Below are positions 28,993 to 38,155 of a stretch of DNA of 64,000 bases, piece after piece (the stretch's first letter is position 1; every line of letters starts with the position of its first letter). The notes beneath the pieces are model-generated. The model did no database searches. It saw only the letters and a program-made list of their open reading frames with translations, and was not told where the DNA came from. Position numbers and translations under genes: made by a program. Source of the DNA: Bdellovibrio bacteriovorus HD100 (GTDB lineage: Bacteria; Bdellovibrionota; Bdellovibrionia; Bdellovibrionales; Bdellovibrionaceae); the NCBI RefSeq assembly GCF_000196175.1, contig NC_005363.1, positions 868,001 to 932,000 of the forward strand, written 5' to 3'.

Positions 28993-30039
28993 TTATTCGT
29001 CTTTCAGGCCCAGGTGTTTAATCACGCGGGATACGTCTTTGCGCAGGCGCGTGAGGTGGGTTTTATTGGTCAGGGTTTTCAGGGCGTCACGCAGTGGTTC
29101 CAGCGGATAGCCGCCGTACTGGCCTGGTTCGGTCAGGTTGTATGTGACAGCGCCACGACCAGCGATCACAATGCGGTCGCCGACAGTGATGTGGTCCGAA
29201 ATCGCCACTTCGCCGCCGAACATGCAGTTGTTTCCGATTTTGCTGGATCCGGCGATGCTGAATTTCGCCGCCATCACATTGTTTTCCCCAATGATCACAT
29301 TGTGGGCGATATGACAGAAGTTATCCATTTTGGTGCCATTGCCGATGCGGGTTTCGGTCAAAGCAGCGCGGTCGATGGCGCAGTTTGCCCCCAGCTCCAC
29401 GTTGTTGCCAATAATCACGCGGCCGATTTGCGGGATTTTTTTCTGAGAGCCGTCTTTTTGCATGGCAAAAGCAAACCCGTCAGAACCAATGGTGGTGTGC
29501 GGATGGATTTCGCAATGAGATCCCAGAACGCAGTGGGACCCGACAAAGACATGGGGATGTAAAAGGGTGTGGTCGCCGATTTCAGCGTGGGATTCCACCA
29601 CGGTGTGAGCACCGATGGTTGCCCCGTCGCCAATCTTGGCATGTTCGCCGATAACCACATAAGGACCCAGGCCGACGTTTTTACCCAAGTGGGCGGTTTC
29701 GTGAACGACCGCTGTCGGGTGGATTTTTGTCGCCTGATTGAAGCGGTTCATCTTCCCATCAAACAACGGAAGGATCGCGGCCATGCCCAGCTGGACAGAA
29801 CCCGCGGTGAAGAATGCAGCCTTGCTGTCCGTCGGAACGGTCAGGGATTTGTGAGCCACGATGATCGGGGCCTGGGCGCTGATCGCCAGGGCCAGTTGAT
29901 CCGGCTTGGACACAAAGACCAGGCTTTCTGAATCGCACTGTTCAGGGGGAAGGACCTTCGAAGCCACGGCGGAAAGTGGGCCGGAGACGAAGTTCAGATC
30001 GGATGAATTTAACTCTTTAATGACTTCTGCTGTGATCAT
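28993..30039 (-). CDS. lpxD: UDP-3-O-acylglucosamine N-acyltransferase (LpxD)
   Basis: The third enzyme of lipid A synthesis, adding a second hydroxyacyl chain to UDP-3-O-acyl-glucosamine, in the cytoplasm. The 348-residue protein has an N-terminal uridine-binding part ([12 protein letters not shown]) and a left-handed beta-helix of hexapeptide repeats ([37 protein letters not shown]). Conserved LpxD motifs include [18 protein letters not shown] and [10 protein letters not shown], where the His is catalytic. The start at 30039 is chosen over 30060 for its position at the conserved N-terminus. It sits alone here rather than with bamA, skp and fabZ, so a paralogue could exist. Confidence 0.94.
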
Positions 30040-30165
30040 AGTGATGCCTCGCGCTAACACTTTACTATTATTTTTTTGATGTCAAGACACTGGGTGATAG
30101 TATAAAGCTGCTTATATAGACACTTTTTGATTCTTTCTCACCTTTAATTTTGGAGAGGAAACGCG

Positions 30166-31132: not shown

Positions 31133-33475
31133 ATGGATCAGGCTCTTCAGAGTTATTTGGCTCGTATTGCTCCCACCGTTTCCGCAAAGTCAGCACAGGC
31201 TGTGATCGAACTTGCGGCTGAAGGGGCAACCGTTCCGTTCATCGCACGTTACCGTAAAGAGAAAACCGGCAATTTGGACGAGGTCCAAATCCGCGCGGTT
31301 ATCGAAGGTCACGAAACTTACAACGAAATCGTCAAACGTAAGGCGTTCCTGATTAAAGAAATCGGCGAACAAAACAACCTGACGGCAGAAATCCAGAAGC
31401 GTATCGAGCTTTCCTGGGATCTGGGCGAGTTGGAAGAAATCTACAAACCATTCAAAAAGAAAAAGAAAACCAAGGCGACCATCGCACGCGAAGCGGGTCT
31501 GGAGCCTTTGGCAAACTGGATCTGGGATATGGGCCATGGCACGATCAAAGACGATCAGACCATGGAGATGAAGGCGAAAAACTTCCTCAATCCAACTGCA
31601 AAAATCGCAACCTACGAAGAAGCGCTTAAAGGCGCTCAGGACATCATCGTCGAGAAAATCGCCAATGATGCGGAACTTCGTGCGATGGTGGCGAAAAACT
31701 ACAACGACAGCGGTCGTGTGGTGGCCAAAGCAGCCAAAGGCTACAAAGCAAACTCCAAGTACGAAATGTACAAGGAATTTGAAGAGCCGGTTAAGAATCT
31801 GATGGATGCGAAAAACAATCACCGCTATCTGGCGATGAGACGTGGCTGGCAGGAAGAAGAGCTGACCGTTGACGTAAAAGGCGACGACGAAGCTATTTTG
31901 AAATCCTATGAAAACTTCGCAACATCCACTCCGGACAATGCGATCGGCGACTACCTGAAACAGTGTGCTCGTCTGGCATTGAACGTTTACGTTCTTCCAT
32001 CTGTTGTGAACGAAGTTCACCGTCAGTTGAAAGAAAAAGCGGATCAGGATGCGATCACGGTCTTTGCTGAAAACGTGCGTAAGCTTTTGCTGGCGTCCCC
32101 GTACGGACCAAAATGTGTATTGGGCGTGGATCCTGGTTTGAGAACAGGCTGTAAAGTGGCTCTGATCGACAAATCCGGCGCATTCATTTCTCACACGGTT
32201 CTTTACACTTTGGGTGACGATGCTGACAGAAAAGCAAAAGTTCTGTTCGGCGACGTGATGAAGCAGATCCAGATCGAGGCGATTGCTGTCGGTAACGGAA
32301 CTGCCGGTCGTGAGACTGAGGCCTTCCTGAAGAAAGTCCTGAAAGATCTGGGTAAAAACATCCCGGTTGTGATGGTTTCTGAGTCCGGAGCTTCCGTGTA
32401 CTCGGCTTCTGAAGTAGCTCGTGAAGAATTCCCGGATCTGGATGTGACTGTAAAAGGGGCGATCTCTATCGCGCGCCGTTTGCAGGATCCGTTGGCAGAG
32501 CTGGTTAAAGTTGATCCTAAATCCATCGGCGTTGGTCAGTACCAGCACGATGTGAATCAGTCCCAGTTGAAGAAATCCCTGGAAGCAGTGGTCGAGTCCT
32601 GCGTGAATAACGTGGGTGTGGACGTGAATACGGCTTCAGCAGCGCTTCTTTCCCATGTGGCGGGTATCGGCCCGGCCTTGGCGAAAGGGATCGTTGAAGC
32701 TCGTAAGAAATCCCTGTTCAACGACCGTACTGAGCTTTTGAAAGTTCCTAAGTTCTCTGCAAAAGTTTTCGAACAGGCAGCAGGTTTCTTGAGAATCCCA
32801 CAAAGCAAACAGGTTCTGGATTCCACAGGTATTCACCCTGAGCGTTACCAGGCGGTGACGGACATGGCGAAGGACCTGGGTGTGTCTTTGACTGACGTTA
32901 TCGGCGAAGGCGCAAAAAAACTGGTTTCCCAAAGATCCAAATGGGCTCAACTGGTGGGTGAGTTCACCTTTGATGACATCGTAAAAGAACTGGAAAAACC
33001 AGGCCGCGATCCGCGTGATCCGTTCAAAGTATTCCAGTTCCGTGATGACATCATGGAAGTGAAGGATCTGACTGAAGGTATGATCTGCCCGGGTATCGTG
33101 ACGAATGTGACCAACTTCGGTGCGTTCGTGGACATTGGTGTTCACCAGGATGGTCTGGTGCATATCTCTGCATTGTCTCACAAGTTCGTGGATGACCCTC
33201 GTAAAGTGGTAAACCCAGGTGACCATGTGACAGTGAAGGTTCTGAAAGTGGATGTGGTTAAAAACCAGATCTCTTTGACGATGAAGATGGACGATGCTCC
33301 GGAGGCTTCTGCACCTCGTGGTGAAAGACGTCCGGAAAACCGTGGTGCTTCCCGCCCAATGGGTCAGGGTCAGCGTCCGCCGGCGGGCAAACCAGCTCAG
33401 GCTCCAATGAAACCTGCAAACCCGTTCAACAACCCGTTTGCAGCTTTGATGAATGTTCCGACAAATAAGAAATAA
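31133..33475 (+). CDS. tex: Tex-family transcription accessory RNA-binding protein
   Basis: A 780-residue Tex protein, the bacterial relative of Spt6. In order: the N-terminal helical region (ATVPFIARYRKEKTGNLDEVQ), the YqgF/RNase H-like fold (VLGVDPGLRTGCKVALID; AIAVGNGTAGRETE), helix-hairpin-helix (SHVAGIGPALAKGIVE), and the S1 RNA-binding domain (GMICPGIVTNVTNFGAFVDIGVHQDGLVH). The C-terminal 55 residues are Pro/Arg/Asn-rich and disordered. Tex binds nucleic acid and influences transcription and rRNA processing. The start has GAGG about 6 bases before. A 31-residue basic peptide gene follows 14 bases later. Confidence 0.96.
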   Translation: MDQALQSYLARIAPTVSAKSAQAVIELAAEGATVPFIARYRKEKTGNLDEVQIRAVIEGHETYNEIVKRKAFLIKEIGEQNNLTAEIQKRIELSWDLGELEEIYKPFKKKKKTKATIAREAGLEPLANWIWDMGHGTIKDDQTMEMKAKNFLNPTAKIATYEEALKGAQDIIVEKIANDAELRAMVAKNYNDSGRVVAKAAKGYKANSKYEMYKEFEEPVKNLMDAKNNHRYLAMRRGWQEEELTVDVKGDDEAILKSYENFATSTPDNAIGDYLKQCARLALNVYVLPSVVNEVHRQLKEKADQDAITVFAENVRKLLLASPYGPKCVLGVDPGLRTGCKVALIDKSGAFISHTVLYTLGDDADRKAKVLFGDVMKQIQIEAIAVGNGTAGRETEAFLKKVLKDLGKNIPVVMVSESGASVYSASEVAREEFPDLDVTVKGAISIARRLQDPLAELVKVDPKSIGVGQYQHDVNQSQLKKSLEAVVESCVNNVGVDVNTASAALLSHVAGIGPALAKGIVEARKKSLFNDRTELLKVPKFSAKVFEQAAGFLRIPQSKQVLDSTGIHPERYQAVTDMAKDLGVSLTDVIGEGAKKLVSQRSKWAQLVGEFTFDDIVKELEKPGRDPRDPFKVFQFRDDIMEVKDLTEGMICPGIVTNVTNFGAFVDIGVHQDGLVHISALSHKFVDDPRKVVNPGDHVTVKVLKVDVVKNQISLTMKMDDAPEASAPRGERRPENRGASRPMGQGQRPPAGKPAQAPMKPANPFNNPFAALMNVPTNKK

Positions 33476-33489
33476 TAAGGAGAACTAAA

Positions 33490-33585
33490 ATGGCAGCAAA
33501 AGGTAAATCCAGAAAAGGTATCCGTCACAGAAAAAAACGCATCTTGACCAAGAAGCGCATGTACAAAGCGAAAATCCGCAAGTAA
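33490..33585 (+). CDS. 31-residue highly basic peptide, possible ribosome-associated protein
   Basis: A short gene downstream of tex, with a perfect AAGGAG 7 bases before its ATG. The peptide has 16 Lys/Arg and one His among 31 residues (starts MAAKGKSRKGIRHRKKR, ends YKAKIRK), with no acidic residue. The composition and length resemble tiny ribosomal proteins such as bTHX or bS22/mS38 types, but no match can be claimed from motif reading. A strong terminator follows directly, so tex and this gene form one transcript unit. An untranslated Lys-codon run is unlikely given the ribosome-binding site. Confidence 0.75.
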   Translation: MAAKGKSRKGIRHRKKRILTKKRMYKAKIRK

Positions 33586-33606: not shown

Positions 33607-33647
33607 AAAAAACCCACAACTTTAACCGGTTGTGGGTTTTGTTTTTT
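33607..33647 (+). terminator. Intrinsic terminator
   Basis: AACCCACAAC (33611-33620) and GTTGTGGGTT (33629-33638) form a 10-bp stem with an 8-base loop, flanked by A-run and T-run. It ends the tex unit and may also serve the convergent exported protein gene. Confidence 0.9.
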
Positions 33648-33670: not shown

Positions 33671-35032
33671 TTAAGGCTTTGTGGTCTGAGCCGCCTTTTG
33701 CAGCAGCAGCAGATCCTTGTATGTGAAGATGCGGTCTTCGCGGGTCGTCTTTAAGTCATGGTCAGTGACGTTCGCATAGGAAGCCGCAAAAATGCTGGCA
33801 CCCAGGTCCTTGCCTTTCATTTCAATCGTGCGGGAGGCAAAGCGGATGCTGCCTTCACGAAGTGCTGTCAGGCTGGTGAAACGGGCCGCCGCCACCGTGG
33901 GAAGGTTCGACAGCGTGGCCACCAGACTTGTTTCAATCGCAAGCAATGTGTTGCCCACGCTCTGTCCAGCAAAGAACAAAGCCAAAGTCGAATACATCAC
34001 GCGGGCCTCGGACGTCTTCAAAGCCGTGTGGCTTTGTGCTCCGGTCAACCACAGGGCAAAGTTGTCACGCATGCGGTGATAGTCATCATACAGCTGTTTG
34101 CCAGTGATGGCGGCGGCGGTGCCTCCGCAGGCCAAGGATACCGGCCACGCCTGCAGGACTGCGGCTACCAAAGAACAAGTGGATAGAGCCGCCAGTTTGA
34201 TGCTTGGCGAGTTTCTTTCAATCCAGGCTTTCAGGCCCACAGCGTGTTTTTGCTGGCGCAGCAGGTTTTCGATGATGGCTTTGTTCTGCGGACTCTCTTC
34301 CACAATACTTTTTACGATCGGCTCATACACCAGGAAGCTTTCCAGAGGGTTTTTCTGGGTGTCGTAAAGCTCGCCCAGGGCCTTGTTCACACGCTCGATG
34401 TATTTACCCAAGGCCACGGCGATCTCTTGATCGGGGGCTTTGTCCGTTTTCATGTAAATCACGAACGGCACCTGGTGAATGATCAGCAGAGCCTGCATGT
34501 TGTAAAACTGTTTTGCGGTGGAAAGCTCATTTTGGATGATATAGCCTTCCATGTTCACATACGGACTTTTGGGTTTGTCCTTGAACATCTCGGCGGCTTT
34601 ATCGGCCATCGCCCGGTAGTCGTCCTGATACAGACGGCGGATCAGTTTCATTTCGGTCTGGTCTTTGTCAAAGCGGGTTTCATACTGCACAAAAGGCAGT
34701 GTCATGCCGATGCGGGCGGCAGAGCCTGAATTCATCAGGCTTTGTGCATTGGCCAGGCCCACCAGCAGTCGGTATTCCTCGGACTTTTGTTTGATGGCGT
34801 TGCGGATCAGCGGCAGCTTTTCTTTCACATCCGGATCGCACAGGGTGATAAAGGCAAAACAGCGGCGCAGTTTTTCGGCCTCCAGCTTTTGTCTTTCCAC
34901 CAGCTCGATGGTTTTGGTTTTAATATCGGTCAAGACGGCTTCTTCCGCCGCCGAGAAGGACGGGGAGGTGGCGGCTTTTGCCGAGGCCGAAGTGACCAGT
35001 AACAGGCTCAATAATAATACAGAAACGTTCAT
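33671..35032 (-). CDS. Exported helical protein, partner of the methyltransferase-like protein
   Basis: A 453-residue protein with a signal peptide (MNVSVLLLSLLLVTSASAKA). The mature N-terminal part is a long helical, coiled-coil-like region (AVLTDIKTKTIELVERQKLEAEKLRR), followed by a central helical domain and a hydrophobic stretch near residues 280-310 (LAALSTCSLVAAVLQAW, ACGGTAAAITG) and another near 350, which could insert into a membrane. The second half is rich in Ala, Ser and Thr. I do not recognise it. GAGGA lies in the end of the upstream gene, and the start is 3 bases after that gene's stop, so the two are translationally coupled. Confidence 0.75.
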   Translation of the reverse strand: MNVSVLLLSLLLVTSASAKAATSPSFSAAEEAVLTDIKTKTIELVERQKLEAEKLRRCFAFITLCDPDVKEKLPLIRNAIKQKSEEYRLLVGLANAQSLMNSGSAARIGMTLPFVQYETRFDKDQTEMKLIRRLYQDDYRAMADKAAEMFKDKPKSPYVNMEGYIIQNELSTAKQFYNMQALLIIHQVPFVIYMKTDKAPDQEIAVALGKYIERVNKALGELYDTQKNPLESFLVYEPIVKSIVEESPQNKAIIENLLRQQKHAVGLKAWIERNSPSIKLAALSTCSLVAAVLQAWPVSLACGGTAAAITGKQLYDDYHRMRDNFALWLTGAQSHTALKTSEARVMYSTLALFFAGQSVGNTLLAIETSLVATLSNLPTVAAARFTSLTALREGSIRFASRTIEMKGKDLGASIFAASYANVTDHDLKTTREDRIFTYKDLLLLQKAAQTTKP

Positions 35033-35035
35033 GGC

Positions 35036-36592
35036 TTATATTTCCTCAAAGAAGGGAAGCGGAAGGCCGTCTTTGCCCTCCGTAGTTCCCATCAGTTTTA
35101 GTTTTGGTATTTTAATTTTATTGCGATCCTTGATGGTGACCTTCAGGAAGGTCCATTCACCACCGCTCCAATGATAGCCGCCGCGGAAAAGACTGGTGTT
35201 GAGGCCCGGAATCTGACGCATCCACTGACGCAAAGGCATTTGCGTTCCGTTTTTGGTCATGACCATGCTGTCAGATCCAAAGCCGCCGTATTCCTGACCC
35301 GTGTAAATATAGATTTCCCCCTTATTCGAGAGGGACTGCACGTAGCGGTTTAAAACAACATCCGGAGCAAAGGCGGACATGAAGTCCCCGTGATAGTCGG
35401 TGATCAGTTTCACGTCCTGGATGTCCTTCAGCAGATTGGAGTCTGACATCGCGGTGTAGTTGATCTTGTCGGTGTTGATGCGTGAAGATCTCCAGCGGAT
35501 GAACTTCTGGGCCAGGCCGACAAAGACTTTGGTGTCGCTGTAGTCATAGTCCTTGTTTTTCATGCCGGCAAAAACCTGGGCACCGACCTCACTGGAGTTC
35601 ACCCAGCGGTCGCTGCGCTTCAGCCCTTTGATGCTGGCGATCAGCGGATGGCGAAGTTCGCCTCCGCGGAAAGCGTCCAGGAACTGGGAGGCGCTGATGG
35701 TTTTGGCGTGCTCCCGGAAGGTGGCCCGGGCTTTTTCCTGCAAAGAAGCGTGTGAGGTCAGGCCATTGTTGGCGACTTCTTTAAAGGTCATCACCGGCGG
35801 CGCCCCTTCTTTGAAGTGCACCATTTCAACTGCGGGAACATTTACTTCAGAATCTTTTTTGGTGATTTTAACAGTCCACATCTCATAGTGGGTGCCGTCG
35901 TCCTCTTTTTTGGTTTTTACCAGTTCGGTGTGAATGCCTGGCAGGGTCTCAAGCCATTGTCCCAGATTCAAAACTTCGCCTTTGGCCGTGATGACTTTAT
36001 TGGCTTGGCCGTAAAGCTCGTGGCGCGCCCCCAGGAAGATATAGATCTCGCCGTCGGGTTTCAGATTGTTCAGGTATTTTTGCATCACCTGGTGAGGCTG
36101 GCCCGAATAGGCCAAGGGTCCAAAGACATCGGTGATCAGATCGCTTTTGGCGATCTCTTTGTCGGCAATGGTTTCAAGGAAACGGCCGGAAATCACATTC
36201 AGGCGTTCGGCGGATTTGGCCGAAGTCTCATAAGCCACGACCGTAGAGCGCAGGTTCTGGCCTTCGGGCAGCTGCAGGGCCTGGCGGACAGCGAAGGCGT
36301 GGCCAGCTCCCGAATCAAACCAGTGGCCATCCTGCTTTTGCAGAACGCGGGAAAGGGATTGGGCAAAGTCCTTGCCCAGAACAATCTTGTAAGTTTCAAG
36401 ACCACGACCTTTGGTGAAAAGCTGCTCGTATTTAGTCAGGTTTTCAAAGGCGCGGGGATCGTTTTTCTCGGCCTTGGCAAAAGTGAATATGCCTTCACAA
36501 CGGGCCGCAACAGACGCCTGTGCCGCAAAAGGCAGCGCCATTGTCAAAAGGCTCGACAAGCTCAAGACGGCTAGCGTTGTTTTAATGCTCAT
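35036..36592 (-). CDS. Exported protein with duplicated methyltransferase-like fold
   Basis: A 518-residue protein with a signal peptide (TTLAVLSLSSLLTMALPFAAQA). Residues about 90-250 look like a Rossmann methyltransferase: WFDSGAGHAFAVRQAL (a DxGxG motif I at 93-97), a strand TVVAYETS, then DLITDVFGPL (151-160) and LKPDGEIYIFLG (177-188). A second, degenerate copy spans about 393-500: KLITDYHG, LSNKGEIYIYTG, then QWMRQIPGLNTSL matching QWLETLPGIHTEL of copy one. Copy two has no clear motif I. SAM is not expected in the periplasm, so it may be inactive or act in prey cytoplasm. AGGAG lies 5-6 bases before the ATG at 36592. Confidence 0.75.
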   Translation of the reverse strand: MSIKTTLAVLSLSSLLTMALPFAAQASVAARCEGIFTFAKAEKNDPRAFENLTKYEQLFTKGRGLETYKIVLGKDFAQSLSRVLQKQDGHWFDSGAGHAFAVRQALQLPEGQNLRSTVVAYETSAKSAERLNVISGRFLETIADKEIAKSDLITDVFGPLAYSGQPHQVMQKYLNNLKPDGEIYIFLGARHELYGQANKVITAKGEVLNLGQWLETLPGIHTELVKTKKEDDGTHYEMWTVKITKKDSEVNVPAVEMVHFKEGAPPVMTFKEVANNGLTSHASLQEKARATFREHAKTISASQFLDAFRGGELRHPLIASIKGLKRSDRWVNSSEVGAQVFAGMKNKDYDYSDTKVFVGLAQKFIRWRSSRINTDKINYTAMSDSNLLKDIQDVKLITDYHGDFMSAFAPDVVLNRYVQSLSNKGEIYIYTGQEYGGFGSDSMVMTKNGTQMPLRQWMRQIPGLNTSLFRGGYHWSGGEWTFLKVTIKDRNKIKIPKLKLMGTTEGKDGLPLPFFEEI

Positions 36593-36766: not shown

Positions 36767-38155
36767 ATGATTATTCAACCTCACATTCTGTCCAAGGCTC
36801 TGGATGCGGCTCTGAGCACGGGTGCTGATTTTGCCGATATCTTTGTTGAAGATACGTATTCTTCCCAACTGACAGTTCTAAATTCCAAAGCCGACCAGGC
36901 CATCGTCGGCCAGTTGTACGGCGCAGGAATTCGTTTGTTCTTCGGCCATGAGATTGTCTATGTGACGACGAATGATCTTTCGGAAGCAGGCCTGGTGAAG
37001 GCTGCGTTGAACGCGGCTCAAAGCCGTGGCACAGGGGCCGCCTCCAAGTCCATGCCACTGATGCAGGTGCCTTTTGATTCTGTTCACACCTTTGGTGAAA
37101 AACCGTGGGAGATGAATCGCGACCGCAAGTTCAAATGGTTAAACGGCATTGATCAGCATGCCCGTGCCCGCAACTCGGCGGTGACTCAGGTGGAAGCGGG
37201 TTTGAATGAAAAGTTCCAGCGTGTGCAAATCGCCAACTCTCGCGGTTTGATGGCGTATGATGAACGGGCATATTCCCGTATCCGCATGCAGACTTTCGTT
37301 GAAAGCAACGGCGTGAAAGAAAGCTCTGCCGATGACGAAGGTCACATGGGGACTTCGGAAGTTTATGATCAGATTGATTTGAAAGCTTTGGCAGAAGGTG
37401 CAGTGGACCGCGCGATGTTGTTGACCACGGCCGCCTATGCGCCAGCGGGTGACATGCCGGTATTGATCGACAATGCCTTCGGCGGTGTCTTGTTCCACGA
37501 AGCCTGTGGTCACGGTCTGGAAACGACCGGTGTTGCCAAGGATTCTTCCGTGTTCTGCGGCAAGATGAATCAGAAAATCGCGCACGAATGTGTGACGGCG
37601 ATTGATGATGGCACCATCGAAAACGGATGGGGCTCTTTGAACATGGATGACGAAGGCAACAAAACCAAGAAAACAACATTGATCGAAAACGGTGTCCTGA
37701 AATCCTACATCGTGGATGAAATGGGTTCCCGTCAGACCGGTTATGAAATCACCGGCAGCGGTCGCCGTCAGTCTTACAAATATGCTCCGGCTTCCCGCAT
37801 GAGAAACACATTCATCGCGGCTGGTAAAGACAAGTTCGAAGACATGGTTCGTGATGTGGACTACGGCCTTTATGCAAAACGCATGGGTGGTGGTTCCGTG
37901 AATCCGGGCACAGGCGATTACAACTTCCAGGTGGCTGAAGGTTACATTATCCGTAATGGCCGCATCGAAGAAGCGGTGAAGGGTGCCTGCCTGATCGGTC
38001 GTGGGATCGATACACTGGGTAAGATCACCAAAGTTTCTGATGATCTGAAACTGGCGCGTGGTATGTGCGGATCTGTCAGTGGAACAATTCCGGCGGCTGT
38101 GGGTCAGCCTCAAGTTCTGGTTTCCAGCCTGATGGTTGGTGGGAGAGCAAAATAA
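36767..38155 (+). CDS. tldD: TldD metalloprotease subunit
   Basis: A 462-residue member of the PmbA/TldD family. In E. coli TldD-TldE is a heterodimeric zinc protease that processes peptides such as microcin B17 and CcdA. TldD carries the zinc motif, seen here as HEACGHGLE (HExxxH) near residue 245, with the conserved DNAFGGVLF just before it and later SGRRQSYKYAPASRMRNT and CLIGRGIDTLGKI. AAGGAGG lies 7 bases before the ATG. The stop overlaps the start of tldE (TAATG), which supports a complex. Confidence 0.94.
   Translation: MIIQPHILSKALDAALSTGADFADIFVEDTYSSQLTVLNSKADQAIVGQLYGAGIRLFFGHEIVYVTTNDLSEAGLVKAALNAAQSRGTGAASKSMPLMQVPFDSVHTFGEKPWEMNRDRKFKWLNGIDQHARARNSAVTQVEAGLNEKFQRVQIANSRGLMAYDERAYSRIRMQTFVESNGVKESSADDEGHMGTSEVYDQIDLKALAEGAVDRAMLLTTAAYAPAGDMPVLIDNAFGGVLFHEACGHGLETTGVAKDSSVFCGKMNQKIAHECVTAIDDGTIENGWGSLNMDDEGNKTKKTTLIENGVLKSYIVDEMGSRQTGYEITGSGRRQSYKYAPASRMRNTFIAAGKDKFEDMVRDVDYGLYAKRMGGGSVNPGTGDYNFQVAEGYIIRNGRIEEAVKGACLIGRGIDTLGKITKVSDDLKLARGMCGSVSGTIPAAVGQPQVLVSSLMVGGRAK

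Follow-up and report, generated by a model that had tools for sequence, protein, structure and literature searches.

What would a 518-residue protein that carries both an export signal and a methyltransferase-like motif do in the predatory bacterium Bdellovibrio bacteriovorus HD100? The gene resides in the window analysed here, a stretch of 64,000 nucleotides corresponding to bases 868001-932000 of the HD100 genome, which is one contig of 3,782,950 bases. Three nucleotides separate its stop codon from the start of the next gene, which encodes a 453-residue protein; the coordinates of all features are collected in Table 1. In comparisons with genomes G006 and G009, the 518-aa protein evolves faster (89-90% identity) than the products of the 462-aa gene at 36767 and of the Tex-like gene (98.7-99.6%). 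The latter gene is intact in the window at 31133-33475, and in G010 (L074:7705-10210) a frameshift or a sequencing error breaks it up into ORFs of 439 and 394 residues. Just 3' of it, at 33490-33585, a small and very basic ORF (MAAKGKSRKGIRHRKKRILTKKRMYKAKIRK) resembles a small ribosomal-type protein, and at 28993-30060 there is a gene of acyltransferase type, the kind of product that a published study ascribes to bd0950.

Table 1. Features of the locus, in positions of the window
Feature	Position	Strand	Basis or remark
Gene of the predicted exported, tandem methyltransferase-fold protein of 518 aa (P0001)	35036..36592	-	ORF 35039-36592, stop codon 35036-35038 included; orthologues; dN/dS 0.09
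Sec-type signal peptide, residues 1-26	36515..36592	-	predicted cleavage between AQA and S, by eye
Cys32, sole cysteine of the 518-aa protein, just after the signal peptide	36497..36499	-	Cys there in 54/60 relatives
Domain 1, residues ~60-273, predicted class I methyltransferase-type fold, motif I kept	35774..36415	-	AlphaFold2, Foldseek, conservation
Motif I of domain 1, residues 91-99 (WFDSGAGHA)	36296..36322	-	conservation; WFDSGAG is 91-97
TD..G...Y loop after strand 4, residues 154-162 (TDVFGPLAY)	36107..36133	-	conservation
Domain 2, residues ~300-518, same predicted fold, degenerate	35039..35695	-	half-to-half homology, AlphaFold2, profile, purifying selection
Degenerate motif I of domain 2, residues 330-338 (WVNSSEVGA)	35579..35605	-	D to N, both glycines gone
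Gene of the predicted exported, helical protein of 453 aa, 3' of the 518-aa gene	33671..35032	-	ORF 33674-35032, stop codon 33671-33673; adjacent, not obligate
Terminator-like hairpin, bidirectional, after the 453-aa gene	33609..33640	.	sequence

The N-terminus of the 518-aa protein, MSIKTTLAVLSLSSLLTMALPFAAQA followed by SVAARC, reads as a normal Sec signal peptide, and the protein is predicted to be Sec-exported. The signal peptide had been recognized in the first-pass annotation, and the assignment is reinforced by the relatives of the protein, since a hydrophobic N-terminal stretch was found in 70 of the 74 having a recognizable motif, a figure that is approximate as, for some ORFs, the hydrophobicity scan includes sequence ahead of the real start codon. 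In family members this stretch nearly always precedes one conserved cysteine. The pattern C-E-x-h-F after the signal peptide was considered as a general export motif and discarded: among the 30 of 99 genome pattern sites checked, only that of the 518-aa protein follows a signal peptide. In two other exported proteins, which have no methyltransferase-type motifs, the signal peptide is closely followed by C-x-x-[VIL]-F. One (L075:8821-9822) is encoded close to an orthologue of the 453-aa protein, the other (L082:8422-8880) beside a member of the exported methyltransferase-fold family.

Structure prediction and fold search returned a Rossmann-like, class I methyltransferase-type fold, in line with the first-pass annotation. 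The AlphaFold2 model, built from 24 sequences, has a mean pLDDT of 82.6 and a pTM of 0.76; both domains are modelled confidently, and confidence is low only in the signal peptide and a few loops. With this model Foldseek retrieved 212 PDB matches at E <= 0.001, and the best 50 are nearly all class I methyltransferases, the remainder being spermidine synthases. The top matches are the two-domain enzymes PMT-2 and RsmC, and the alignment covers both halves of the 518-aa protein. TM-scores are low for the whole chain, probably reflecting a different orientation of the domains, and reach 0.5-0.6, normalized to the target, for single-domain structures. Sequence searches of the PDB gave no significant match. 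Neither the 518-aa nor the 453-aa protein hit anything over threshold in Pfam, NCBIfam and PHROGs, and P0001 in particular has no methyltransferase match in Pfam or NCBIfam; several single-domain relatives match the Pfam families Methyltransf_31/12/23 (best E 8.6e-5).

The two halves of the protein align to each other by BLASTP (31% identity over 135 aa, E = 2e-18), and a profile built from domain 1 and single-domain relatives only detects domain 2 in 7/7 two-domain proteins, at 60-68 bits. By these measures the homology of the two halves is far beyond chance, and the view that the same fold end occurs twice in the chain is strengthened. In a domain tree, quickly built and weak in its deep branches, the domain 1s of the two-domain proteins group together (SH-aLRT 99), and so do the domain 2s (100), on a long stem. 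Because each set of domains forms a group of its own, a single old duplication would account for all seven two-domain proteins. In comparisons with G006 and G009, dN/dS is about 0.06 for domain 1 and about 0.09 for domain 2. The latter value denotes purifying selection, hence domain 2 is not decaying.

The pocket is best described motif by motif. Among domain-1 or single-domain sequences the D-x-G-x-G of motif I is nearly invariant (D93 in 70/75, G95 in 75/75, G97 in 73/74), as is the TD..G...Y loop (T154 in 62/75, D155 in 72/75, G158 in 73/75, Y162 in 73/75), and E140 is kept in 67/75. The end of strand 2 is normally occupied by D or E, which binds the ribose of SAM. When this site is placed from DSSP alone, with strand 2 at residues 115-120, the usual acid is missing family-wide: position 120 is A in 24, T in 18, S in 15 and G in 6 of 73 sequences, and not D or E. 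Position 121 is mostly Y or F, and at position 122, among 74 sequences, 29 have K and 16 have E; HD100 has E122, two residues past the strand, which could possibly provide a shifted ribose contact. Loss of the strand-2 acid is tolerated by some genuine methyltransferases. In domain 2 the motif I positions are taken by N, S/T and V/M/A in six aligned two-domain proteins, and in the seventh (L006), which reads WVNVSPYGA, the glycine loop is also lost; the second loop still has its TD and G. Of the two halves, only domain 1 thus keeps the loop that had been called methyltransferase-like (DSGAG), and the acid that usually goes with it is lacking throughout the family. In contrast, a methyltransferase ORF in L133 (G000:C1:960000-979999) reads LEVGCGVG...LTGIDRST, has the acid, and lacks a signal peptide. 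The L133 ORF encodes an ordinary cytoplasmic class I methyltransferase, and may be Bd1029, named in PMC11656739 as specific to intraperiplasmic predators. Bd1029 is not a detectable relative of the 518-aa protein, since no second family member was found by searching the HD100 genome.

The protein belongs to an unnamed, putatively exported family spread over the phylum. Within the order, protein search identified relatives in 36 of 141 genomes; profile search identified them in 77 of 369 Bdellovibrionota genomes, predators and non-predators being counted together. Most family members are single-domain proteins of ~250-350 residues, and the two-domain form was found in seven genomes (G000, G006, G009, G008, G012, G081 and G327). 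Within the genus itself, at least 8 genomes yielded no member in the profile search. No relative was found by tblastn among plasmids (query P0001) or phages (query a single-domain relative), nor in a scan of viral contigs; two scans of genome contigs, with a sensitivity far below that of the profile search, gave three relatives only, all from Bdellovibrio. In L124 (G126:C23:15500-21600) at least three adjoining relatives of 465-479 residues lie on one strand, one of which was also read as L028. Each has ~230 residues ahead of motif I, and the array looks like a subfamily with long N-termini that has expanded in tandem.

The fold, the duplication, the retention and loss of motifs, the hydrophobic N-termini found across the family and the purifying selection were all computed, and the reading that we favour, with moderate confidence, is that the 518-aa protein is an extracytoplasmic, ligand-binding protein of methyltransferase fold, or a non-canonical enzyme, with a degenerate second domain. 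According to this scheme, Sec would export a chain with two class I methyltransferase-type domains that go back to a single old duplication. In domain 1 a pocket of the nucleotide/SAM type is kept, and a small molecule, perhaps a nucleoside or a SAM-related compound, would most likely bind there; a bound ligand is argued for by the retained glycine and TD loops. We infer that binding takes place outside the cytoplasm of the predator, either in its own periplasm or in the bdelloplast, and that the role of domain 2, which has lost the loop, is most likely structural, dimer-like or target-binding. With the usual ribose-binding acid gone, and SAM normally absent from periplasm and bdelloplast, the protein is probably not a canonical SAM methyltransferase.

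The best-surviving alternative, which we judge unlikely, is that the protein is a true SAM-dependent methyltransferase effector. Delivered by Sec to the bdelloplast, it would reach the prey cytoplasm, or prey-derived SAM, and methylate a prey target, domain 2 acting as a target-binding pseudo-domain. The full motif I and the invariant TD loop of domain 1, as the fold itself, are what such an enzyme would display; pathogens do secrete methyltransferases (Rv2067c, PMC10739865), and Sec has been credited with exporting degradative enzymes into prey (PMC2797640). However, the strand-2 acid is absent family-wide, and no route over the prey inner membrane has been identified. In addition, at least 8 congeneric genomes lack the family, which is therefore not needed for the common lifestyle. 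The papers searched, main texts of largely open articles, make no mention of delivery into prey, of a prey target or of a laboratory test. Somewhat less likely still is the notion of a phylum-wide exported family, shared by predators and related bacteria, that works outside the predator cytoplasm, either by modifying prey molecules or by capturing nucleosides or SAM derived from prey, with domain 2 of the duplicated form turned into a target-recognition pseudo-domain.

An improbable alternative is that the fold has been reused in a non-catalytic structural or adhesive envelope protein which binds no small ligand. The pocket loop of domain 2 is clearly lost, the periplasm is not expected to contain the cofactor, and the protein could be tethered through the conserved cysteine that follows the signal peptide. 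Yet, the glycine and TD loops of domain 1 are kept across very diverged sequences, and a scaffold would not need them.

A further alternative is that the two genes form an obligate pair, in which the helical protein carries the methyltransferase-like one across a membrane; the first-pass annotation had described a coupled partner with hydrophobic stretches that could help in membrane crossing. The genes lie 3 nt apart, and three close genomes share the strand order; both facts are consistent with this idea, which we regard nonetheless as very doubtful. The 453-aa protein has its own signal peptide. Its four cysteines (58, 65, 286 and 302) are invariant in a 7-sequence alignment. The hydrophobicity beyond the signal peptide amounts to one marginal segment near 280. 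Its structure model (pLDDT 55.4) is too poor to interpret. Clear orthologues occur in seven genomes, and the pair is adjacent in only three of them (G000, G006 and G009). Each gene occurs without the other in four genomes: the partner is found with no detected family member in G004, G010, G017 and G108, and is lacking in G008, G012, G081 and G327, being present with 3/7 two-domain genes. In G010 the partner sits at the same site, and the stretch preceding it bears remnants of the start of the missing gene (0/1000 shuffles as good) and a remnant of its end (6/1000 shuffles as good), which suggests that the two-domain gene has been deleted and the partner retained. The 453-aa neighbour is thus probably not an obligate partner.

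That the signal peptide is unused, and the 518-aa protein an ordinary cytoplasmic methyltransferase, is scarcely credible, given that a hydrophobic N-terminus followed by a cysteine is conserved in nearly all relatives.

The favoured reading, that of an extracytoplasmic protein of methyltransferase fold, can be set against known systems. The 518-aa protein resembles class I (Rossmann-like) SAM-dependent methyltransferases in its fold, as modelled by AlphaFold2 and matched by Foldseek, and in the D-x-G-x-G of domain 1, and differs from them in its predicted export, in lacking the strand-2 acid and any match to a curated family, and in having a domain 2 devoid of motif I. RsmC, a 16S rRNA methyltransferase, and PMT-2, a phosphoethanolamine methyltransferase of nematodes, likewise have two methyltransferase-type domains per chain, and RsmC also has a degenerate half. 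Yet both are cytoplasmic, their identity to the 518-aa protein is only 8-11%, and the duplication described here would have its own single origin within the family. Rv2067c and Rv1988 of Mycobacterium tuberculosis, methyltransferases that leave the cell, provide a precedent for action in another cell, a likeness that implies no homology; they act on host histones, whereas the 518-aa protein has a predicted Sec signal peptide.

Methyltransferase-type folds depend on a cytoplasmic cofactor, and an exported family that keeps the pocket loop without the ribose contact raises the question of which extracellular ligand is bound. The single-domain relatives are small, tractable proteins for testing. 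Should the ligand be SAM from the prey, the family would provide a case of inter-bacterial methylation in predation; should it be another compound, the family would represent an extracytoplasmic reuse of the methyltransferase-type fold.
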